This document shows positions 21,222 through 63,200 of a stretch of DNA of 64,000 nt, one piece after another. The notes under the pieces are model-generated. The model was not told the origin of the DNA, did not search any database, and saw only the letters and a list, made by a program, of their open reading frames with translations. The position numbers were made by a program, and so were the translations under genes. The stretch is from Spirochaetota bacterium. Its GTDB lineage: Bacteria > Spirochaetota > Spirochaetia > Treponematales > Rectinemataceae. Position 1 is the stretch's first letter. Every line of letters begins with the position of its first letter. Where the stretch lies: positions 62,001-126,000 of the forward strand of contig JAKLFE010000002.1 in the NCBI GenBank assembly GCA_022711355.1, written 5' to 3'.

Positions 21222-22498
21222 TTTTCCTCGAGCCGCGCTTCCAGCGCGGGCTCGAAGCGAGCGTCCTCGGCCTCGACCTTGCCGAGCTCGACCCGAGCGG
21301 CGCCGTTGAAGGCGGCGAAGCGCCGGAGCTCGGCCGCAATGGCCGAGGCGAGGGCGCTCGCGCTCGGGCGGCGCCGCCCCGCCCAGGCTCCGGGCGCGGC
21401 GACGGCAAGGCGGCAGAGGCGCAGGAGGCCCTCCTCGCGCTCGGCTTTCGCGTCCGCGAGGCCGACGAAGCCGGAGCCGCCGGAGCCGTCGACATAGAGG
21501 ATGGGGAGGGCGAAGTAGCCGAAGCGCCGCTTGGCCTCGGGGAGGTAGCATTCGAGCTGGTAGTCCAGGCCGAGGAGGCGGGCGGCCCGCTTGCGGTCGA
21601 TGATGGCCGGGTCGAAGGGCGAGAGGATGCGGGCCCGGGGCCGCGTCGCGGGGGGCGCCGCGGCGGCTTCGAGGGCGGCGGGCTCGGCGAGGAGCTCCAG
21701 AGGCCGCCCCGAGCGTTCGGCCAGGCCCTCGACCTCGACTCGGACCAGGCTGCCCGACTCGAGCCGCGCCTCGATCTCCTCGGGGATGCCCGCCACGCCA
21801 TCCTTGCGCAGATAGGCGACCTCGCGGGGGGCGAAGATGCCGAGGCTCGCGGCCGCCCGGTCGACGTGGCGGGCCGCCTGCTCCCGCGCGTCCGGGAAGG
21901 CGAGCTCGAGGCTCGGGGGCAGGGAGCGCTCCGCGAGGTCGTAGAGCTTCTGGAAGCCCACGCGTCGCAGGCAGAAGAGCTCGCCCGCGTGGAAGAGGTA
22001 CTCGAGGGCTATCTTGGCCGGCTTCCAGTCCCACCAGCCCCGGGCGCCCTTCATCGGCTCGGCGAAGTCCTGGGCGCGGAGGGGACCCTCGGCGCGGATC
22101 CGGTCGCGGACGTAGGCGACCGCCTTCTGGTCGGCGCGGAACCACTGGTGCCCCTCGGCCCTGATGCGATCCATGCGGGGCAGGCAGAAGCGATACTCGC
22201 CCAAGGGCAGGTAGGCGGCGGCGTGGGACCAGTACTCGAAGACGAGGCGGGGCTCGCCTTCCAGGCGGGGGATCGCGTCGAGGCGGTAGCCCGGTACCCG
22301 CGACCAGAGGACGTGGTGGTGGGCCCGCTCCACCACGCTGATCGTGTCGATCTGGACCGAGCCGAGGCGCCCGATGGCGGCCGCCGCTCCCGCGGCGCCG
22401 CGCGGGAAGGCCTCGCCGCCGGCCGAGGCCTGCGGAAGGAGGCCGGAGGCTCCCAGGGCGAGCCTCCGCGCGGTCGCCAGGTCGATGGACTCGGACAT
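21218..22498 (-). CDS. YcaQ-like winged-helix DNA glycosylase
   Basis: 426 residues of the HTH_42/YcaQ family. Conserved elements are the QID motif in LGSVQIDTISVVERAHHHVLW (about 46-66, the Q-x-D catalytic motif of the YcaQ/AlkX branch), FEYWSHAAAYLP and the C-terminal ILSPFDPAIIDRKR. YcaQ (AlkX) enzymes unhook interstrand crosslinks and remove N7-alkylated bases; that activity is inferred from family. The start has no Shine-Dalgarno, but a -10 hexamer lies eight bases upstream, so the mRNA is almost leaderless. Confidence 0.88.
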   Translation of the reverse strand: MSESIDLATARRLALGASGLLPQASAGGEAFPRGAAGAAAAIGRLGSVQIDTISVVERAHHHVLWSRVPGYRLDAIPRLEGEPRLVFEYWSHAAAYLPLGEYRFCLPRMDRIRAEGHQWFRADQKAVAYVRDRIRAEGPLRAQDFAEPMKGARGWWDWKPAKIALEYLFHAGELFCLRRVGFQKLYDLAERSLPPSLELAFPDAREQAARHVDRAAASLGIFAPREVAYLRKDGVAGIPEEIEARLESGSLVRVEVEGLAERSGRPLELLAEPAALEAAAAPPATRPRARILSPFDPAIIDRKRAARLLGLDYQLECYLPEAKRRFGYFALPILYVDGSGGSGFVGLADAKAEREEGLLRLCRLAVAAPGAWAGRRRPSASALASAIAAELRRFAAFNGAARVELGKVEAEDARFEPALEARLEEN

Positions 22499-27765: not shown

Positions 27766-28468
27766 ACCGGCCGAGGATCGCGCCTGGGCAGCCGAGGCCC
27801 GCCGCGACGGGGCAGGCGCCGCAGCGAGGCTCGCCCGAGGGGCAGAACTCCCGGCCGAAGCGGATGAGGTTCACGTGGAGCGAGAGGATGTCCCGCGAGC
27901 CTCGGGCCAGCTCCTGGAGGAGGTCGGCGCCGCGCTCCGAGGGGGCCTCGCCGGGCAGCGAGTGCCAGCCGAGGCGCCGCGTTACGCGCCATATGTGCGC
28001 GTCGACCGCGAAGGAGGGGCGGGCGAGGCCGAAGGCCAGGACGCAGCGGGCCACCTTGAGGCCCACGCCCGGCAGGGAGCGGAGGAAGGCCTCGCATTCG
28101 GCGTCGGTCCAGGAGCGCAGCTCCTCGAGGCTCTCGGAGCCGAAGCGCTCCCGGATGGCGGCGAGCGAGGAGCGGAGGTTCGCGGCGCGCGTCTTCCACA
28201 GGCCCGCGGGCCTGAGGCACTCGCCGAGGTACTCGGGCGGGGCCTCGGCAGCGGCCGCCCAGGTCGGGTAGCGCTCGCGGAGGGCGCCGTAGGCCGCGTC
28301 GCAGTTCTCCACCGTCGTGCGCGTGCTGAGGAGGAACCAGACGAGCTGGTCGAGGACCGGGCCCGAGCTCTCGTCGGGGTACTTCCCGTAGCGGCGCTCG
28401 AGGAGGGCCTCCACCGACCGAGGCGAGGGGGCCCTGGGCGGGCGGCGCGTTCGAGGGGCTTGGGCCAT
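27764..28468 (-). CDS. Endonuclease III-like DNA glycosylase/AP lyase
   Basis: 234 residues of the HhH-GPD superfamily. The helix-hairpin-helix reads LRSLPGVGLKVARCVLAF and retains the Lys of bifunctional Nth enzymes; the catalytic Asp is in AVDAHIWRV. Four cysteines near the C-terminus (C-x6-C-x2-C-x7-C) form the 4Fe-4S loop, with a slightly longer last spacing than the usual x5. It excises oxidised pyrimidines in base excision repair. The ATG has no Shine-Dalgarno; a promoter -10 lies seven bases upstream. Confidence 0.9.
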   Translation of the reverse strand: MAQAPRTRRPPRAPSPRSVEALLERRYGKYPDESSGPVLDQLVWFLLSTRTTVENCDAAYGALRERYPTWAAAAEAPPEYLGECLRPAGLWKTRAANLRSSLAAIRERFGSESLEELRSWTDAECEAFLRSLPGVGLKVARCVLAFGLARPSFAVDAHIWRVTRRLGWHSLPGEAPSERGADLLQELARGSRDILSLHVNLIRFGREFCPSGEPRCGACPVAAGLGCPGAILGR

Positions 28469-28475
28469 GGGGGGG

Positions 28476-28504
28476 ATACTGCGGCGCGGCGGCCGCCCCG
28501 TCAA
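28476..28504 (-). promoter_or_regulatory. Leaderless promoter of the nth-like gene
   Basis: Minus-strand -35 TTGACG (28504-28499), 17-base spacer, -10 CAGTAT (28481-28476), then seven C and the ATG. Predicted transcript start is at the start codon. Confidence 0.65.
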
Positions 28505-28563
28505 GCGGAGCCGCTGGACCCGCGCCCGCGGGGGCTGCCCTGGCGCGGCCGCGCCGCATCTGC

Positions 28564-28569
28564 TATCTT
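28564..28569 (+). promoter_or_regulatory. -10 element of a leaderless promoter for the HIT gene
   Basis: TATCTT preceded by TGC (extended -10) lies exactly six bases before the ATG. The -35 is weak. No Shine-Dalgarno is present. Confidence 0.55.
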
Positions 28570-28575
28570 CGCGGC

Positions 28576-28917
28576 ATGAGCGATTGCCTGTTCTGCAAGA
28601 TCGTCGCGGGCCAGATCCCCTCCAAGAAGGTCTACGAGGACGAGGAGCTCCTGGCCTTCCACGACATCGGACCCAAGGCCCCGGTCCACTTCCTCGTCGT
28701 GCCCAAGAAGCACGTCCCGAGCCTCTACGAGCTCGAGAAGGCCGACGCGGCCCTGCTCGGGCGCCTGGTGTACAAGGCCCAGGAGCTCGCCCGGGAGCTC
28801 GGCTGCGAGAAGGGCGCCCGCTTCGTCCTCAACTGCAAGTCCGACGGCGGCCAGACCGTGGAGCACCTCCATCTCCACGTCCTCGGCGGCCGGGCCATGG
28901 GCTGGCCGCCGGGCTGA
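28576..28917 (+). CDS. HIT family (HINT-type) nucleotide hydrolase
   Basis: 113 residues, normal for HinT proteins. The N-terminal CLFCKIVAGQIPSKKVYED and the histidine triad VEHLHLHVLGG (about 95-105) are diagnostic. These proteins hydrolyse adenosine phosphoramidates and related nucleotides. It sits between the nth-like gene (divergent) and the deformylase gene, 11 bases upstream of the latter. Confidence 0.93.
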   Translation: MSDCLFCKIVAGQIPSKKVYEDEELLAFHDIGPKAPVHFLVVPKKHVPSLYELEKADAALLGRLVYKAQELARELGCEKGARFVLNCKSDGGQTVEHLHLHVLGGRAMGWPPG

Positions 28918-32600: not shown

Positions 32601-33701
32601 ATGTCGGAACTGGTATTGAAGGATCTCGAGATACGCTACGGGAAGGTGACGGCCCTCGACCGGCTCAACCTCAGCATCAAGGACGGCGAGCTCGTCACCC
32701 TCCTCGGGCCCTCGGGCTGCGGGAAGACGACGACCCTGCGCGCCGTCTCGGGCTTCCTCGCGCCCCAGGGCGGGGACATCTTCATAGGCGGCCGCCGCAT
32801 CACCGACATCCCGCCGGAGAAGCGGGGGATCGGCCTGGTCTTCCAGAACTACGCGCTCTGGCCCCACATGACCGTCTTCAAGAACCTCGCCTTCGGCCTC
32901 GAGATGCGGAAGATCCCGGCCGAGGAGATCAAGCGCCGCGTGGCCGCGGTCCTGGCCTCGGTGCAGCTTTCGGAGTACGCCGACCGCCTGCCCCGCCAGC
33001 TTTCCGGCGGCCAGCAGCAGCGCATCGCCCTCGCGCGGGCCATCGTCCTCGAGCCGGACATCCTCCTCCTGGACGAGCCCTTGTCGAACCTGGACGCCCT
33101 CCTGCGCGAGCAGATGCGCTTCGAGATCGCGGCCATCCACGACAGGCTCGGGATCACGACGATGTACGTCACCCACGACCAGACCGAGGCCATGGTGATC
33201 TCGGACCGCATCGTGATCATGCGCAAGGGCCTGGTGATGCAGGACGGGCCGCCCGAGGAGATCTACCGCAGGCCCGCGAACAAGTTCGTGGCCGGCTTCA
33301 TGGGCACGACGAGCTTCGTCCCCGGCGCCGTGGTCGGGGTCGAGGGCGAGCGCTGCGAGATCGAGACGGCCGAGGGCCTCCGCCTCGTCGGCCTGGGCTC
33401 GGGCCTCAAGCTCGGCGACCGGGCCTGCGCCGCGGTCCGGCCGGAGGCCGTCCTCCTGGGCAAGCGCGGCGCCGAGGAGCCCGAGGGCCGGGGCGCGAAC
33501 CGCTTCGAGGCGGTCGTGCAGCGCTCCAACTTCACCGGCGAGCTCGTGGACTACCAGCTCAAGGTCGGTTCCTGCTTCCTCCGCGCCAAGGAGCCGGAGA
33601 CGAGGAAGGTCCACGGCTGCGGGGAGCGCGTCGAGCTGCGGATCAGCGCCGAGCGCCTCCCCATCGTCGCCGACGCGGACGCCGAGCCCCGCGCGGTATG
33701 A
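32601..33701 (+). CDS. ABC transporter ATP-binding protein with TOBE domain
   Basis: 366 residues. Walker A GPSGCGKTTT (about 36-45), Q-loop FQNYALWPHMTV, signature LSGGQQQRIALARA, Walker B ILLLDEPLSNLD and the switch His in THDQTEAM are all intact. The C-terminal third (about 240-366) is a TOBE regulatory domain as in PotA, UgpC and FbpC. AAAGGAGCAGCG precedes the ATG. It powers the two permeases upstream. Confidence 0.95.
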   Translation: MSELVLKDLEIRYGKVTALDRLNLSIKDGELVTLLGPSGCGKTTTLRAVSGFLAPQGGDIFIGGRRITDIPPEKRGIGLVFQNYALWPHMTVFKNLAFGLEMRKIPAEEIKRRVAAVLASVQLSEYADRLPRQLSGGQQQRIALARAIVLEPDILLLDEPLSNLDALLREQMRFEIAAIHDRLGITTMYVTHDQTEAMVISDRIVIMRKGLVMQDGPPEEIYRRPANKFVAGFMGTTSFVPGAVVGVEGERCEIETAEGLRLVGLGSGLKLGDRACAAVRPEAVLLGKRGAEEPEGRGANRFEAVVQRSNFTGELVDYQLKVGSCFLRAKEPETRKVHGCGERVELRISAERLPIVADADAEPRAV

Positions 33702-34450
33702 GGCTCTGCTTCCTCGGGACGGGCAGCGCCATACCCTCGGCCGGGGACGGCTTCACCTCCTTCCTCGCCGAGGAGGGTGGCTCCCTCGTCCTGGTCGACT
33801 GCGGGGACGACGCCTACCGCTCCCTCCTCGAGGCGGGCCGGGATCCCCTCGCCCTCGACGCCCTCGTCCTCACCCACGAGCACGCCGACCACCTCGGGGG
33901 GCTACCGGCCTTCGTCGCCGCCCTGGACTGCGCGCGGCGCGCGAAGCCCCTGGCCCTCGCGGCGGCCCCCGCCCTGGCGGGGAAGGCCCAGGCCCTCCTC
34001 GGGGCCTTCGGCCTCGATCCGGGGAACCTCTCCTTCGAGCCGCGCTTCTCCCGAGGCTGGGAAGCCGCGGGCCTCCGCGTCGAGCTGATCGAGGGCAGGC
34101 ACAGCGTGCCGACCTCCATGGTCCTCTTCTCTTCAGGGCGGGGGGGGAGGCTCCTGTATAGCTCCGACAGCAGGTACGAGCCGGGCTTCCTCGCCTCCGG
34201 GTCGGGGCATTGCGCAACGCTGATCCATGAGGCTACATATCCTCATGACCGATTGCCGGCTAGCACGGGGCACAGCTCGGCCCTCGAGGCGGGGCTCGCC
34301 GCCCGCGAGATCGGGGCCGAGCGCCTCTTCCTCTGCCACTTCCAGGAGAGCGCCTTCCCGGCCGGCTTCGACCCGGCGGCCGAGGCCGCCTCGTCCTTCG
34401 GCGGCGAGGCTATCCGCCCCGAGCTCCTGCGCTGGTACGAAGTAGCGTGA
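33698..34450 (+). CDS. Metallo-beta-lactamase-fold hydrolase (RNase Z/PhnP-like)
   Basis: 250 residues. The metal motif is THEHADHLGG (H-x-H-x-D-H) near residue 60, with further ligands in EGRHSVPTSMV, SDSRYEP and GHSSALEA. The start CFLGTGSAIP is typical of the RNase Z/PhnP branch, which cleaves phosphodiesters. Being inside the ABC operon (ATGA overlap with the ATPase, GTGA overlap with lacI) it probably acts on the imported compound rather than on tRNA; this is inference. Confidence 0.82.
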   Translation: MRLCFLGTGSAIPSAGDGFTSFLAEEGGSLVLVDCGDDAYRSLLEAGRDPLALDALVLTHEHADHLGGLPAFVAALDCARRAKPLALAAAPALAGKAQALLGAFGLDPGNLSFEPRFSRGWEAAGLRVELIEGRHSVPTSMVLFSSGRGGRLLYSSDSRYEPGFLASGSGHCATLIHEATYPHDRLPASTGHSSALEAGLAAREIGAERLFLCHFQESAFPAGFDPAAEAASSFGGEAIRPELLRWYEVA

Positions 34451-35520: not shown

Positions 35521-38500
35521 TCAGAAGAGCCCGAGCTGGGGATCGCGCGGCCTAGGGGGCCCGGCCTCGACGAGGGGCACGAGCCCGGCGAGGCCGGCGA
35601 GGAAGCGGCTCGGGGGAAGCTCGAGCTCGCGGCCGCGGAAGGAGCGCGAGCGGGCCCAGGAGAGGCGCAGGCCGATCCGCGCCCGGGTCATCGCCACGTA
35701 GAGGAGGCGCCGCTCCTCCTCTACGCGCTCGGCCGGGAAGTCGCCGCCCTCCTCGCGCTCGTCGTAGAGGGTGAAGGGGAGGATGCCCTCCTCGAGGCCC
35801 GCGACGAAGACCTGGTCGAACTCGAGACCCTTGGCCGCGTGCATCGTCATGATCCAGACCCGCTCGGTGCGGGGCTCGTAGCCCTCCTGGCTGGGCTCGC
35901 CGACGAGGCGGCAGGGGATGCCGTGGTCGGCGAGGGCCTTCTCGAGGGGCGGGGCCAGGGCGGCCGCCCTGACGAGGATAGCGCACTCGCCGAGGCTCCG
36001 GAGCTCGCCCTCCTGGGCCCCCGCGACCCCCGAGTCCCGGGCGAAGAAGCCCGTGCCCCCGACGAGGCGGTCGATCTCCCGCGCTATGCCCTCCGCCTCG
36101 GACTTGCCGCTCGGGTACTCGCTGCGGTAGAGGGCGACCTCGCCCGCCGGGCCGCGCGAGCCCGGCGCCGGGGCGCCTTCGATCCGGGAGCCGACGAGGC
36201 TGCCGGCCGCCCCGACGATGGGCGCGGCGCAGCGGAAGCTCCGCGTTAGGCGATATTCCTTCGCGTCCGGGTAGTCCGCGCGGAAGCGCTCGATGAAGCG
36301 CCGGTCCGAGCCGCGGAAGCCGTAGATGGCCTGGTCCGGATCGCCGATGACGAAGAGCTCGGGAGCCGCGCCGGCCTCGGGCTCCGGCGAGGGGGCGAGG
36401 AGGCGCATGAGGGCGTACTGGGCGAAGTTGAGGTCCTGGTACTCATCGACGAAGAGGGCGCGGACGCGGGCGCGGAGGGCGGCCAAGGCCTCGGGCCTCG
36501 CCGCGAGGAGGCGGGCGGCCCCGGCCACGAGGTCCTCGAAGTCGAGGCAGCCGGTCGCCTTGAGCTCGGCGCGATAGGCGGCGTAGCCGGGCTCGAGCTC
36601 GGGCTCGAGGGCCGGGAGGCCGAGCTCCTCGGCGAGCTCGGGAAGGCCGGCCGGGGCGCCGGCGCCCAGGCGCGGGCGGGCCTCGCCGGGGAGGAGGAGG
36701 AAGCGCTTGCGCGTCTCGATGTAGTCGCCGAGGCGGCGGGCGCCGCGGGCCTTGCCGGCGAGGCGTCCCAGGATCGCGTCGCGCTCCTCCTCGCCGAGGA
36801 TAGCGAAAGCCGGGTCGAGGCCGGCCTCGGCCGCCCGCTCGGCCAGGAGGGAGCGGCAGAAGGCGTGGAAGGTCGAGGCCGCGACGCGCGCGGCCCGCTC
36901 GGGGCCGGCCGCCCGCCCGAGGCGCTCGCGGAGGGACTCGGCGGCCTTGTTCGTGAAGGTGAGGGCGAGGATGGACTCGGGCTCGAGGCCCGCGTCGAGG
37001 AGGCGGGCGGCGCGGAGTGCGAGGAGGGCGGTCTTGCCCGTGCCCGGCCCCGCGATCACGAGGGCGGGCCCGCCCGGATGGGCGAGAGCGGCCGCCTGGG
37101 CCGGGTCGAGGGCGAGGGGGGCCTCGGGGAGGCGCGGCCGGCCTTCCGGGGCAGGGGCGAGTGGGGTCCCGGGAGCACCGGCCGGCGCCGGCCGCCGCAG
37201 CCGTCGGGGCAGGGACCGCGCCCGGGGTTCCGGCTTCGCGGGGGCGAGCCCCGCGCCCTCCCCGCCGAAGAGCCCGGCCGCGCCTTCCGCCTCCCGGTCC
37301 TCGCCCGGGGCGAGGGTGCGGACGGATCCGTACTCCCCGTCGTAGCCGGGCTCGAGGGAGACGAGGCCTCCGCGCATCCGCCCCAGGGCCCGGGCGAGGA
37401 GCTCGCCCGGGAGCCCCGGGCAGCCCAGCGCGGCGATCTCGCGCTCGGGGAGCTCCCTGAGGAGGCGAAGCTCGCTCCCGGCCTCGCGGACGAGGGCGTT
37501 ATAGGCGGCGGCCACCTTCTTCGAGCCGGTCCCCGCGCCGAGGAGCTCGGCGAGGACCTCGTCCAGGGGCACCAGGGATTCGTAGGGCTTCTGGTTCGCG
37601 CGGGGTCCCGGGGCCTCGCCGGGACGGGGGCAGGGAGCGGCCTCGTCCACCGGCCGGTCGGCGAGCACGGCCACGCGGCCCATGACGCCCGGGGTCAGGG
37701 CCTTGCCGCAGGCCGGGCAGAGCCCGCCCCGGGCCGCGCTCTCCTCGGGCGGGAGGACAACGCCGCAGGCGCGGTGGCCGTCGTAGTGGTACTTGCCCTC
37801 CTGGGGGAAGAACTCGATCGTGCCGAGGATCGAGCCCCGCGGGCCTCCGCCCGCGAGGGCCTCGGCGAGGCCGGCGAAGCCGGGCTCGAGCTCGAGGACC
37901 GTGGCCTCGCGGCCGAGCTTCTCCGGCGAGTGGGCGTCCGAGTTCGAGACGATGGCGAAGCGGTCGAGGGAGGAGAGGGCCCAGTTCATGGGCGGGTTCG
38001 AGGAGAGTCCCGTCTCGATCGCGCCGATCCGGGGAGCCAGGTCGCCGTAGCACTCGTCGATGGAGTCGAAGCCCGAGCGGGCGCCGAGGGCCGAGAACCA
38101 GGGGGTCCAGATATGGGCCGGCACGAGGATCGAGCGCTCGTCGGCCTCGAGGAGGAGGGCGTACAGGTCCCGCGAGTCCAGGCCGAGGATGGGCCTGCCG
38201 TCGGAGGCGACGTTGCCGACGCGCGTTAGGCGCTCTTGGAAGGCCTCGGCCGCCGCGAAGCCGGGCAGGAGGACGAGGTGGTGGACCTTCCTCGTGCGGC
38301 CGCCGCGGCTGTAGATCGTGCTGATCTCGCCCGAGAGGACGAAGCGGGCCTCCGAGCCTTCCGCCGGCTCGGGGAGGGACTCGGCCAGGGCCTCGCCCCG
38401 GTCGAAGGGGAGGCGCGCGTCGGCCTTGAGGCGGAACAGGCCCTCCTCGGCGGGATCGAGGGCCGCGCGCAGCTCGGCGAGCCAGGCCGGGTGGGTGCAG

Positions 38501-38625
38501 TCCCCCGTGCCGACGAGGCCGAGGCCCTTGATCCGCGCCCAGCGCTCGATCCGCGCCGGCCCGAGCTTGGGGCTCGTCGCCCGGGAGTAGCGGGAATGGA
38601 TGTGGAGGTCGGCGACGAGGCGCAT
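35521..38625 (-). CDS. EndoQ-like PHP nuclease fused to UvrD/Rep-type helicase
   Basis: 1034 residues. The N-terminal part (1 to about 430) matches endonuclease Q/TIGR00375: PHP metal motif DLHIHSRYS at 6-14, GTGDCTHP, an AHIWTPWFS segment, NSDAHSPEKLG and a zinc site formed by the Cys of RACG and CPACGK (about 290-310). The C-terminal part (about 505-1030) is a superfamily 1 helicase: Walker A GPGTGKT near 525, motif II VDEYQD near 728, GDPDQAIYGFRG, TMHAAKGLEFDQVF and YVAMTRAR near 978. EndoQ nicks 5' of deaminated bases; the fused helicase could open the DNA around the nick. The middle (about 430-505) is Pro/Ala/Arg-rich linker. It has no Shine-Dalgarno and a -10 six bases before the ATG. 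Confidence 0.9.
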   Translation of the reverse strand: MRLVADLHIHSRYSRATSPKLGPARIERWARIKGLGLVGTGDCTHPAWLAELRAALDPAEEGLFRLKADARLPFDRGEALAESLPEPAEGSEARFVLSGEISTIYSRGGRTRKVHHLVLLPGFAAAEAFQERLTRVGNVASDGRPILGLDSRDLYALLLEADERSILVPAHIWTPWFSALGARSGFDSIDECYGDLAPRIGAIETGLSSNPPMNWALSSLDRFAIVSNSDAHSPEKLGREATVLELEPGFAGLAEALAGGGPRGSILGTIEFFPQEGKYHYDGHRACGVVLPPEESAARGGLCPACGKALTPGVMGRVAVLADRPVDEAAPCPRPGEAPGPRANQKPYESLVPLDEVLAELLGAGTGSKKVAAAYNALVREAGSELRLLRELPEREIAALGCPGLPGELLARALGRMRGGLVSLEPGYDGEYGSVRTLAPGEDREAEGAAGLFGGEGAGLAPAKPEPRARSLPRRLRRPAPAGAPGTPLAPAPEGRPRLPEAPLALDPAQAAALAHPGGPALVIAGPGTGKTALLALRAARLLDAGLEPESILALTFTNKAAESLRERLGRAAGPERAARVAASTFHAFCRSLLAERAAEAGLDPAFAILGEEERDAILGRLAGKARGARRLGDYIETRKRFLLLPGEARPRLGAGAPAGLPELAEELGLPALEPELEPGYAAYRAELKATGCLDFEDLVAGAARLLAARPEALAALRARVRALFVDEYQDLNFAQYALMRLLAPSPEPEAGAAPELFVIGDPDQAIYGFRGSDRRFIERFRADYPDAKEYRLTRSFRCAAPIVGAAGSLVGSRIEGAPAPGSRGPAGEVALYRSEYPSGKSEAEGIAREIDRLVGGTGFFARDSGVAGAQEGELRSLGECAILVRAAALAPPLEKALADHGIPCRLVGEPSQEGYEPRTERVWIMTMHAAKGLEFDQVFVAGLEEGILPFTLYDEREEGGDFPAERVEEERRLLYVAMTRARIGLRLSWARSRSFRGRELELPPSRFLAGLAGLVPLVEAGPPRPRDPQLGLF

Positions 38626-60221: not shown

Positions 60222-63200
60222 ATGCCCGCCATCCGACATTCCCGGCTCCTCCCTTCCCTGCTGCTCGCCCTCGCCCGCCTCGCCGCCGGCCCAGGCCCCG
60301 CGGCCCAGGCCGCCGAGCCCTCCGTCGTCTTCCAGCGCGGCCACTCCGAGCAGCCCGCCTTCATGGCCTTCCTCGACGAGGGCCACCTCGTCACCTGCGC
60401 CCCCGGCGAGCTCTTCCTGTGGAGCTACCCCGAGGGCAAGCTCCTCGCCGTCCACGAGGGCCTCGGCCGCCCGCCCGCCCTCGCGGTCGAGGAGGGGGGC
60501 CGGACCTGCCTGGTCATGTCGGACCGGGGCCTCGTGCTCGTCGATCCCGCGGCCGGCCGGGTCCTCAGGCGCCTCGCCTCCTCCAAGGCCGAATCCCGTT
60601 TCCTCCTGCCGAGCCCCGATCGCCGCCTCCTCGCCGCGACCATGACGGACGGGAGCCTCCATCTCCTCGAGCTCGCGAGCGGGAAGGCCATCCTCGCCCT
60701 CGAGGGGGAGAAGGCCTACGGGATCGCCTTCTCGCCCGACGGCCGCGTCCTGGCCTCGGCCGGGCCCAAGAAGCTCCGCCTGTGGGAGGCGCGGACGGGC
60801 CGCCTCCTCGGCGAGCACGCGACGAGGCTCAGCCGCGGCGAGGGGCCCTTCTTCATCGGCTGCCGCCCCGCCGGCTCGCCCGGCTGGGAAAGCGTCGAGG
60901 CCGAGGGCTTCTCCTGGACGGTCGAGGACGGCCAGCGAGCCCAGCTGGCCGAATCGCGCGACGGCTCCCTCCAAGCCCGCTTCGGCGGCCAGGGAATCCG
61001 CCTCTACCGCTCCGCCGAGACGGAGCCCTTCCGCGAGCTCGAGCTCGGGGCGGGCTTCCGAGGCAAGGCGCTCGCCCTCAGCCCCGACGGCTCTCGCCTC
61101 CTCACGGCCGACGACGAGGATGCCATCCGATCCTGGGACGTCGGCAGCCTCGCGGAGCTGCCCTTCGGCTCCGCCGGGCCGGGCCCCGTCGACGAGCTCC
61201 AGGTCTCGCCCGACGGCCGCTGGCTCTTCGTCCATTACCAGGCCTACGGACCCAATGCCGAGAGCCTCTCCGCGGTCTGGGACCTCCGCGCCGGCCGTCT
61301 CCAGCGCCGCATCGTTTCCCGCGAGCGGCTCGCGGGCAGCTGGGGCTTCCTGCCGGACGGCGCGCGCTACATCTCGGCCGAGGGCGGCGGGCTCGGGGGG
61401 GAGAGCCTCAGCCTCCGCGATACAGCCACGGGCAAGAGCATCCGCGAGTTCCGCTACCGCCACCCCAAGGGCTACGGCCGCGACTGGCTCGTCGACTGGG
61501 CCTTCCTTCCGGGGGGCAAGCGCTTCATCACGGTGAGCGACGTCTCGGTAGTGCTCTGGGACGTCGATTCTGACAAGCCGATCGAGGTCCTGACCGGCAA
61601 GATCCCCCCGCCCCTCTACGCGGGCGGGGCCCTGGCCGTCTCGTCGAAGGGCGACCGGATCGCGCTGCGGGGCGAGGACGGCTTCTACGCGGTGTATTCG
61701 ACGGACGACTGGAAGAAGGTGGCGCGGATCGAGAACGAGGACCGACGATCCAGCGGCCTAGCCTTCGTCGACGGCGACCGGAAGCTCCGCGTCGAGACCT
61801 ACTTCTCGGATGGCACGCCGAGCATATGGGTCTACGACATCGCGACCGGGAAGTACGTCAAAGGGGGAGCCGAGTCCTTCCCCGATCCCCTTCGCGCCGC
61901 GGCCTCGGCCCTCATCGCCGCCGGAGGCTTCGGGCCGCGGCTCCTGGGCCGCGCCTTCTTCGCCGAGCGCCCCGGCGCAGGGCTCCTGTATGTCGGGAGC
62001 CGCGACGGCCTGGCGCGGATCCTCGACCCCTCGCGGAAGACCTGGTGCGGCCTCTACCTCGGCGCCTCCTTCGGGAAGGCCAAGGCGCCCGAGGCCTGGA
62101 TAGCCTTCGACGGGAAGGGCTATTGGGACGGCTCGGCGGAGGGAGCCGGCCTCGTGGCCATGAGCGACGGCTGGCGCTCCTTCGGGCTCGAGCAGTTCGC
62201 CGTCCGCAACAACCGGCCCGACCTCCTCCTCGCCCAGCTCGGCTGCCCCGATCCCGAGGCGATCGGGCACTATCGCCAGGCCTATGCGAAGCGCCTGGCG
62301 CGGCTCGGCCTGGCCGAGGCCGACCTGGCCTCCCCGGCCGAGCCCCCCGCCGCCCGCGTCTCGAGCCACGCCGAGTCCGGGGCCTCGAGCTCCCTCGTCG
62401 CCGAGTTCGCCCCCTCGGGCCCCGGCCGGCCCCTCGCCGGCTACCGGATCTACGCGAACGGGGCGCCCCTGGGCTCGGGCGCCTGGCAGGCCCTGCCGGC
62501 CTCGGGGGGGAGGATCGAGGCCGAGCTTCCCCTCGTCCCGGGCCCGAACCTGATCGAGGTCTCCTGCCTCGACGCCGCGGGCGCCGAATCGGCCCGCGCC
62601 GGCTATCGCGTCCTCGGCCCCGCGAAGGCGGCTCGCCGCCTCTTCTTCGCCGGCTTCGGGGTCTCGCGCTACGCCGACCGGCGCCTCGACCTGCGCTACG
62701 CGGCCAAGGACGCCGAGGACCTCGCCGCGGCCTTCGCGGCGACGGCCGGGCGCGGGGGCTTCGACGAGGTCCGCGCCAAGACCTGGCTCGACGCGGCCGT
62801 GCGCCCCGAGGCCCTGGCCGAGGCCGCCGCCTTCCTGGGCGCCTCCCGGCCCGAGGACACGGTCGTCCTCTTCATCGCCGGCCACGGCGTGCACGACCGG
62901 GGCCCCGGCTCGGAATACTACTATCTATCGCATACCGCGAATCCCGCCGACCTCCCCGGCACGGCCATGCGCTTCGAGTCGATCGAGGGCCTCCTGTCCG
63001 GCATCCCGGCGCTGCAGAAGCTCTTCCTCATGGATACCTGCGAGTCCGGGGAGGCCGACGAGGCCGTGCTCCCGGCCGCCGCGGCGGGGCAAGGCGGCTC
63101 GAGGATAGCCTCGCGCGGCGCGGCCATCCTCGCCGACGGCAGCTTCTTCGGCGACGCGGCCGGGGGCCGCGGCCTGGCGGTGGCCTCGGCGAGGCCGCGG

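Follow-up and report, generated by a model that had tools for sequence, protein, structure and literature searches.

The 64,000 nucleotides analysed here (the window: positions 62,001 to 126,000 of contig JAKLFE010000002.1, from a Spirochaetota bacterium of the Rectinemataceae) carry a gene that joins an endonuclease Q (EndoQ) to a UvrD-type helicase. The open reading frame (ORF) spans 35521-38625 and, like all features of the fusion given below, is on the minus strand; it runs for 1034 codons uninterrupted by a stop, from an ATG that agrees with the homologue alignment to a stop codon at 35521-35523. Residues 1-437 (37315-38625) comprise the PHP domain, zinc ribbon, and C-terminal domain of EndoQ, as identified by PDB entry 5zb8, family TIGR00375, and an AlphaFold2 model. 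A linker occupies residues 438-503 (37117-37314), and residues 504-1012 (35590-37116) form the core of a superfamily 1A (SF1A) helicase of the UvrD/PcrA type, in which motifs I-VI are present and the 2B subdomain is absent. The AlphaFold2 model, for which 59 fused homologues served as alignment input, has a mean predicted local distance difference test score (pLDDT) of 86 and is confident in both halves; disorder is limited to residues 447-499 of the linker (pLDDT below 50) and the last few residues of the chain. The first-pass annotation of this DNA had described an EndoQ-like nuclease and a UvrD-type helicase in one 1034-residue frame, and this description stands, with both halves matched by sequence and by fold. 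The nearest relatives of the fusion are found in spirochaetes of the Treponema type.

The EndoQ half resembles the archaeal enzyme throughout. It matches PfuEndoQ (5zb8) end to end in a phmmer search of the PDB (E = 8.8e-50), in two stretches of residues 5-67 and 111-437, and matches the NCBIfam model TIGR00375 with E = 1.6e-35. Superposition of the model on 5zb8 chain B by VIA-align (Z 42.5, root-mean-square deviation 2.8, 386 of 398 residues aligned) reveals a full-length EndoQ fold. In PfuEndoQ, zinc is bound by E76, H84, and H139, and normal bases are barred from the lesion pocket by H139, G169, and S171 (PMC8307549). PfuEndoQ residues H84, H139, E167, G169, and S171 correspond to H115, H171, E204, G206, and S208 of the window protein, and each is present in 100 of 100 aligned homologues. 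D6, H8, and H10 carry the same numbers in both proteins; these three and the SDAH motif named in earlier work (PMC4357722), here the catalytic motif at residues 229-232 (37930-37941), are conserved at 98-100% in the same homologues. PfuEndoQ is unaligned around E76, and its expected equivalent, paired by position, is E100 in the sequence EISTIY (residues 100-105; 38311-38328), which is likewise invariant in all 100 homologues. The PHP metal ligands, SDAH, and the lesion-pocket residues are all present in the window protein, and the complete PHP/zinc region that had been claimed for it was upheld at every catalytic and pocket residue checked.

The zinc ribbon also retains its four ligands (H284-x2-C287 and C303-x2-C306; 37705-37776), although the first is His rather than the Cys of PfuEndoQ. 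His occupies this position in 99 of 100 homologues and is therefore a signature of the fused clade. The archaeal proteins PfuEndoQ (PF1551), TkoEndoQ (TK0887), and P. abyssi Pab0431 share with the fusion the PHP domain with the checked metal and pocket residues, the zinc ribbon, and the C-terminal domain. They differ in the Cys that starts the ribbon and in a shorter loop between the positions of E76 and H84. As the first-pass annotation had it, EndoQ is best known as a stand-alone archaeal enzyme, whereas in the window protein a helicase is fused to it.

The helicase half (residues ~503-1012) matches PF00580 (1.4e-58) and PF13361 (1e-26), and its best solved relatives are UvrD, PcrA, and Rep; the modelled half superimposes on Deinococcus radiodurans UvrD with Z 37.8 over 456 residues (VIA-align). 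Motifs I, II, III, IV, V, and VI are all present, with the sequences GPGTGKT (Walker A; residues 526-532, 37030-37050), VDEYQD, GDPDQAIYGFRG, LTRSFR, TMHAAKGLEF, and EEERRLLYVAMTRA. In the alignment of 59 fused sequences, Walker A, DE(Y)QD, QxxY..RG and the Arg of motifs III-IV, and E..R..TR of motif VI are invariant. Motifs and core fold are thus common to the window helicase and PcrA/UvrD/Rep, but the equivalog scores of those proteins are not reached: the NCBIfam PcrA model gives 256.8 bits against a cut-off of 911.2, the UvrD models 215.1-232.7, and the Rep model 230.8, with all cut-offs at 911 or more. Because the scores fall so far below these cut-offs, the fused helicase is placed in a separate branch of the UvrD/PcrA/Rep group.

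A further departure from that group is the loss of 2B. A short loop (residues 908-922; 35860-35904) stands at the 2B site of UvrD/PcrA and of the nearest relatives (loci L010, L011, and L029). Motifs IV and V are 129 residues apart in the window protein versus 236-266 in these relatives, and 282-319 in UvrD/PcrA paralogues where measurable; a 2B subdomain of the kind that marks SF1A helicases is absent. The alignment displays a clean in-frame loss: the relatives read RFIGEQPWWEEEP...LALGSPQDGYE..., and the window protein reads RLVGEPSQEGYE... at the same place. The complete superfamily 1 helicase with motifs I, II, III, V, and VI proposed in the first-pass annotation therefore holds for the motor motifs, to which motif IV can be added, and fails for the architecture. 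Similar intervals occur elsewhere in the fused family, with about 120 residues in the L013-L015/L041 group and in L036, and 149 in L012. A KSB1 member aligns from end to end with PcrA, 2B included (E = 1.8e-125), so the fused ancestor probably had 2B, and the family has probably lost it more than once. In the Treponema-like order, 2B was seemingly lost or cut down several times independently (L013-L015, L036, L040, L041, L012, and the window), and in an Endomicrobium/Gastranaerophilales group both the 1B and the 2B intervals are shortened. In Rep, 2B is autoinhibitory and its deletion activates the monomer helicase (PMC13238157). By analogy, we expect the window helicase, having lost 2B, to be active in monomeric form and to need no activating partner.

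The most informative feature of the protein, overlooked in the first-pass annotation, is its C terminus. The chain ends ...RPRDPQLGLF, and the last five residues, QLGLF (residues 1030-1034; 35524-35538), form a predicted beta-clamp-binding motif; a C-terminal QLxLF is the beta-clamp consensus (PMC4549789). Q1030, L1033, and F1034 are nearly invariant in the alignment of fused homologues. Among 67 complete, non-identical fused ORFs, 51 have Q[LM]x[LMFI][FLM] no more than three residues from the stop. Within the 59 aligned fusions, 44 carry the strict motif and 55 carry either the strict motif or QxxLF, whereas 0.14 were expected from shuffling the last 25 residues. Paralogues and neighbouring ORFs served as further controls. 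The C-terminal motif occurs in none of 19 paralogous UvrD/PcrA helicases, which further separates them from the window protein, and in 5 of 381 neighbouring ORFs, every one a UvrD piece beside an EndoQ gene.

In 18 of the 59 aligned fusions, where 0.74 were expected, the EndoQ domain is followed by a second QxxLF, at a location that matches the PCNA-interacting (PIP) box of the archaeal enzymes. Spirochaetes of the window type retain only the LF at this site; in the window protein it reads EGAAGLF (residues 447-453; 37267-37287), in which the Gln is gone, and which we infer to be a remnant of the second clamp-like motif. PCNA stimulates archaeal EndoQ via a C-terminal PIP box, and clamp-motif sequences have been noted in bacterial stand-alone EndoQ (PMC4858679). 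A short Gln-led motif as a link to the sliding clamp, predicted for the fusion, is common to it and the archaeal enzymes, although in the fusion the motif sits at the helicase end. Taken together, the C-terminal motif and the second QxxLF indicate that the fused family appears to keep, and often to double, the clamp link. The window protein is predicted from its sequence to bind the beta clamp (DnaN) through QLGLF. A C-terminal docking peptide of the QLxLF type is shared with polymerase-, MutS-, MutL-, and transposase-type clients of the clamp (PMC4549789); here it sits on a nuclease-helicase fusion, for which docking is a prediction.

The fusion is not a trait of one genome but of one large bacterial clade spread over many phyla. 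At least 579 relatives of the EndoQ half came out of a scan of 84,980 species genomes, and the best 80 were kept; since the query is itself fused, this set is biased to fused relatives. Among these best 80 of at least 579 loci, UvrD is in the same ORF in 70, the contig ends in 3, UvrD is a nearby gene in 3, and EndoQ stands alone in 4. The one-frame architecture occurs in at least 10 bacterial phyla, with named carriers in Spirochaetota, Chloroflexota, Thermodesulfobacteriota, KSB1, Elusimicrobiota, Planctomycetota, Bacillota, Bacteroidota, Pseudomonadota, Melainabacteria, Binatota, Calditrichota, and Cloacimonadota. It is present in about 30 of 149 relatives from the order and family, several of them single contigs. 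A less biased sample is provided by 296 genomes of the phylum of the window, in which hits above ~475 bits are nearly all in frames of ~990-1210 residues and hits of 160-340 bits are in frames of 404-495 residues.

Phylogenetic evidence places the two kinds of frame apart. Six of the low-scoring stand-alone frames cluster by themselves with full support, and a few high-scoring stand-alone or split forms are nested within the fused clade, a pattern suggestive of secondary fission or loss; long branches leave the root unsure. The gene family mostly follows phylum and looks chromosomal. A mobile or phage origin was rejected, as no EndoQ relatives were found in the phage, plasmid, and IMG/VR viral collections. 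The distances of the two halves correlate in a mirror-tree comparison (r = 0.87), as expected for halves that are mostly inherited together. Bacterial stand-alone EndoQ, including the Bacillus pumilus/subtilis proteins and the Spirochaetota frames of 404-495 residues, belongs to the same enzyme family; the Spirochaetota frames are mostly low-scoring, group apart from the fused clade, and have C termini without a clear QLxLF.

Two kinds of variant locus may be set beside these results. In L058, L106, and L108, EndoQ and UvrD are separate nearby genes (with one gene between them in L108), and the split UvrD proteins still end in QLKLF, QMTLF, and QLNLF; the UvrD of L106 has just 513 residues. 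L122-L127 represent a second stand-alone EndoQ-like subfamily of Spirochaetota, 413-434 residues long and distant from the fused clade, in which a pattern search for a CxxC...CxxC or DGHRxC...CxxC ribbon gave no match.

The gene is flanked by genes for a LacI regulator and a MATE transporter, with no repair operon, and no widely shared conserved neighbourhood was found among the loci. Small links exist at the level of clades: an Nth-like HhH-GPD gene in six loci, an SMC gene upstream in six, and a biotin-synthase-like gene upstream in four, the last two named from sequence only. The first-pass annotation had taken an Nth-like and a YcaQ-like glycosylase in the window as hints of a repair repertoire. 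Both genes are real: the Nth-like HhH-GPD gene lies at 27767-28828 (minus strand), about 6.7 kb from the fusion, and the YcaQ/AlkZ-like gene at about 21308-22375 (minus strand; PF06224, 1.6e-61). By themselves they have no bearing on the fusion, except that an Nth-like gene is found just beside it in six related loci (L010, L011, and L026-L029), a link of a base-excision enzyme with the fusion that is restricted to close relatives. In L029 an apparent methylglyoxal synthase gene lies between the two. A metallo-beta-lactamase-fold protein is encoded at 33698-34447 (plus strand), start-to-stop with the LacI gene, and has a weak match to the Anti-Pycsar protein Apyc1 that is below the cut-off (39.2 versus 50 bits).

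The best reading of these data is that the protein would be a single polypeptide, tethered to the clamp, for the excision repair of deaminated, and probably also abasic, DNA, a reading to which we assign a probability of about 0.55. The one-protein machine for deamination repair that nicks and unwinds, as the first-pass annotation proposed from sequence, thus survives as a prediction. The broader proposal is an even bet: a dedicated and previously unrecognised bacterial pathway, present in many phyla and corresponding to the EndoQ-PCNA pathway of archaea. Nicking 5' of the deaminated base and unwinding of the damaged strand would both fall to a single beta-clamp-docked protein, with a helicase rendered constitutively active in spirochaetes by loss of 2B. 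What the analysis itself shows is the architecture, residue conservation, broad conservation of the fusion, the clamp motif, loss of 2B, and the mostly correlated evolution of the halves. The literature on relatives supplies the 5' nicking specificity, PCNA stimulation, 3'->5' polarity, and activation by 2B deletion.

EndoQ is known to cut so that one end bears a 3'-OH and the damaged nucleotide carries a 5'-phosphate, and polymerase strand displacement together with Fen1 has been proposed as the archaeal follow-up (PMC4357722). In the proposed mechanism, the EndoQ half would flip out a hypoxanthine, uracil, xanthine, or abasic residue and cut on its 5' side, generating these same ends. The UvrD-type half may then load at the nick and move 3'->5' on the intact strand, away from the 3'-OH, peeling the lesion strand from its 5' end as a flap, so that a helicase would take the place of the polymerase as strand displacer. 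Docking on the beta clamp through the C-terminal QLxLF would bring the protein to DNA that is newly replicated or being gap-filled, and the 3'-OH could be handed to a clamp-bound polymerase, with a 5' nuclease and ligase finishing repair. The order of steps, strand choice, and clamp loading are suggested by polarity and anatomy.

None of the 149 genomes sampled from the order has EndoV (PF04493), compared with its presence in 6 of 14 control genomes, so these organisms have no EndoV route for hypoxanthine, and uracil-DNA glycosylase (UDG) is common; together these make hypoxanthine the likeliest unmet need, though most relatives live without fusion or EndoV. Several points weigh against the deamination-repair enzyme. 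UDG occurs in 139 of the 149 genomes and gives uracil an existing route, and absence of UDG shows no enrichment among fusion carriers (3 of 30, versus 7 of 119 others; Fisher p = 0.42); a role of the fusion as UDG replacement was rejected on this ground. Both the fusion and EndoV are missing from 119 of the 149, and the function is therefore dispensable. The clamp motif is short, and clamp binding is predicted from it; nicking 5' to deaminated bases and ATP-dependent 3'->5' unwinding by the fused protein are likewise expected by analogy with its relatives. Finally, an EndoQ nick need not call for a fused helicase, since Pol I or UvrD could process it.

Other roles for the protein have to be weighed against deamination repair. 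The same clamp-tethered, nick-and-unwind enzyme might act mainly on abasic sites, oxidised pyrimidines, or some other lesion, with deamination secondary. PfuEndoQ cuts abasic sites and some oxidised pyrimidines (PMC8307549), the frequency of UDG in the sampled genomes lessens the need for uracil incision, and enzymes like the Nth-like neighbour in six loci make abasic sites or nicks. However, that neighbour is confined to close relatives, and the residues that exclude thymine and adenine from the pocket (PfuEndoQ H139, G169, and S171) are invariant in the fused clade, leaving this a possible but unlikely account. A replication-fork helicase, whose clamp tag and nuclease clear obstacles or reset stalled forks without lesion specificity, is suggested by the C-terminal motif and by kinship with Rep and PcrA. 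Such an enzyme would hardly need a lesion pocket and zinc ribbon conserved at 98-100%, and the genome encodes other UvrD/PcrA-type helicases. Moreover, the 2B subdomain, which is reported to couple translocation to protein displacement in Rep (PMC6158625), is lost here, a point against obstacle clearing, and we give the fork helicase a small chance.

A defence role directed at uracil, hypoxanthine, or modified bases in phage or plasmid DNA has been proposed for Bacillus EndoQ (PMC8307549), and PADLOC matches the helicase half to GajB models. These matches reflect the shared UvrD-like fold alone: GajB is partnered with GajA, an OLD-family nuclease, whereas the window helicase is fused to EndoQ and has no GajA-like gene beside its LacI and MATE neighbours, and membership of the Gabija system was rejected. 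The chromosomal character of the family, which mostly follows phylum and yielded no relative in the phage, plasmid, and IMG/VR collections, and a clamp motif that suits housekeeping repair leave the defence role a slim prospect. Slimmer still is the idea that the two enzymes were joined for co-expression only, or that one half is dead. The long disordered linker and the existence of split forms would fit uncoupled halves, but conservation extends to both active sites throughout, the fusion persists as a single clade across phyla with correlated halves, and the clamp motif is specific to helicases linked to EndoQ, split forms included. Lastly, the source assembly is a draft (96 contigs, 79% completeness) with a single copy of the gene, which might raise the suspicion of an assembly join, an outcome named in the first-pass annotation as fatal to its proposal, or of a gene-calling artefact. 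The same frame in many phyla and in independent genomes, including the single-contig G041 (1147 residues) and G061 (1075 residues), rules this out in practice and reduces its probability to a negligible level.

Both halves belong to known families; it is the clamp tag, the wide conservation, and the loss of 2B that add interest to their fusion. Sequence databases surely list the EndoQ-UvrD architecture, without comment. No published EndoQ-helicase fusion was found in the open literature, which did not cover two EndoQ structure papers or the Bacillus pumilus EndoQ paper.

The steps after the EndoQ nick have so far been proposed, with no demonstration found, and the bacterial enzyme has been regarded as rare and stand-alone. 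The widely conserved fusion points to a 3'->5' SF1A helicase as the enzyme that acts next and to the beta clamp as the meeting place, making the downstream steps approachable through a single protein. Likewise, the fact that 2B has been lost repeatedly in nature within this family offers a test, beyond engineered Rep, of 2B as an autoinhibitory lid.

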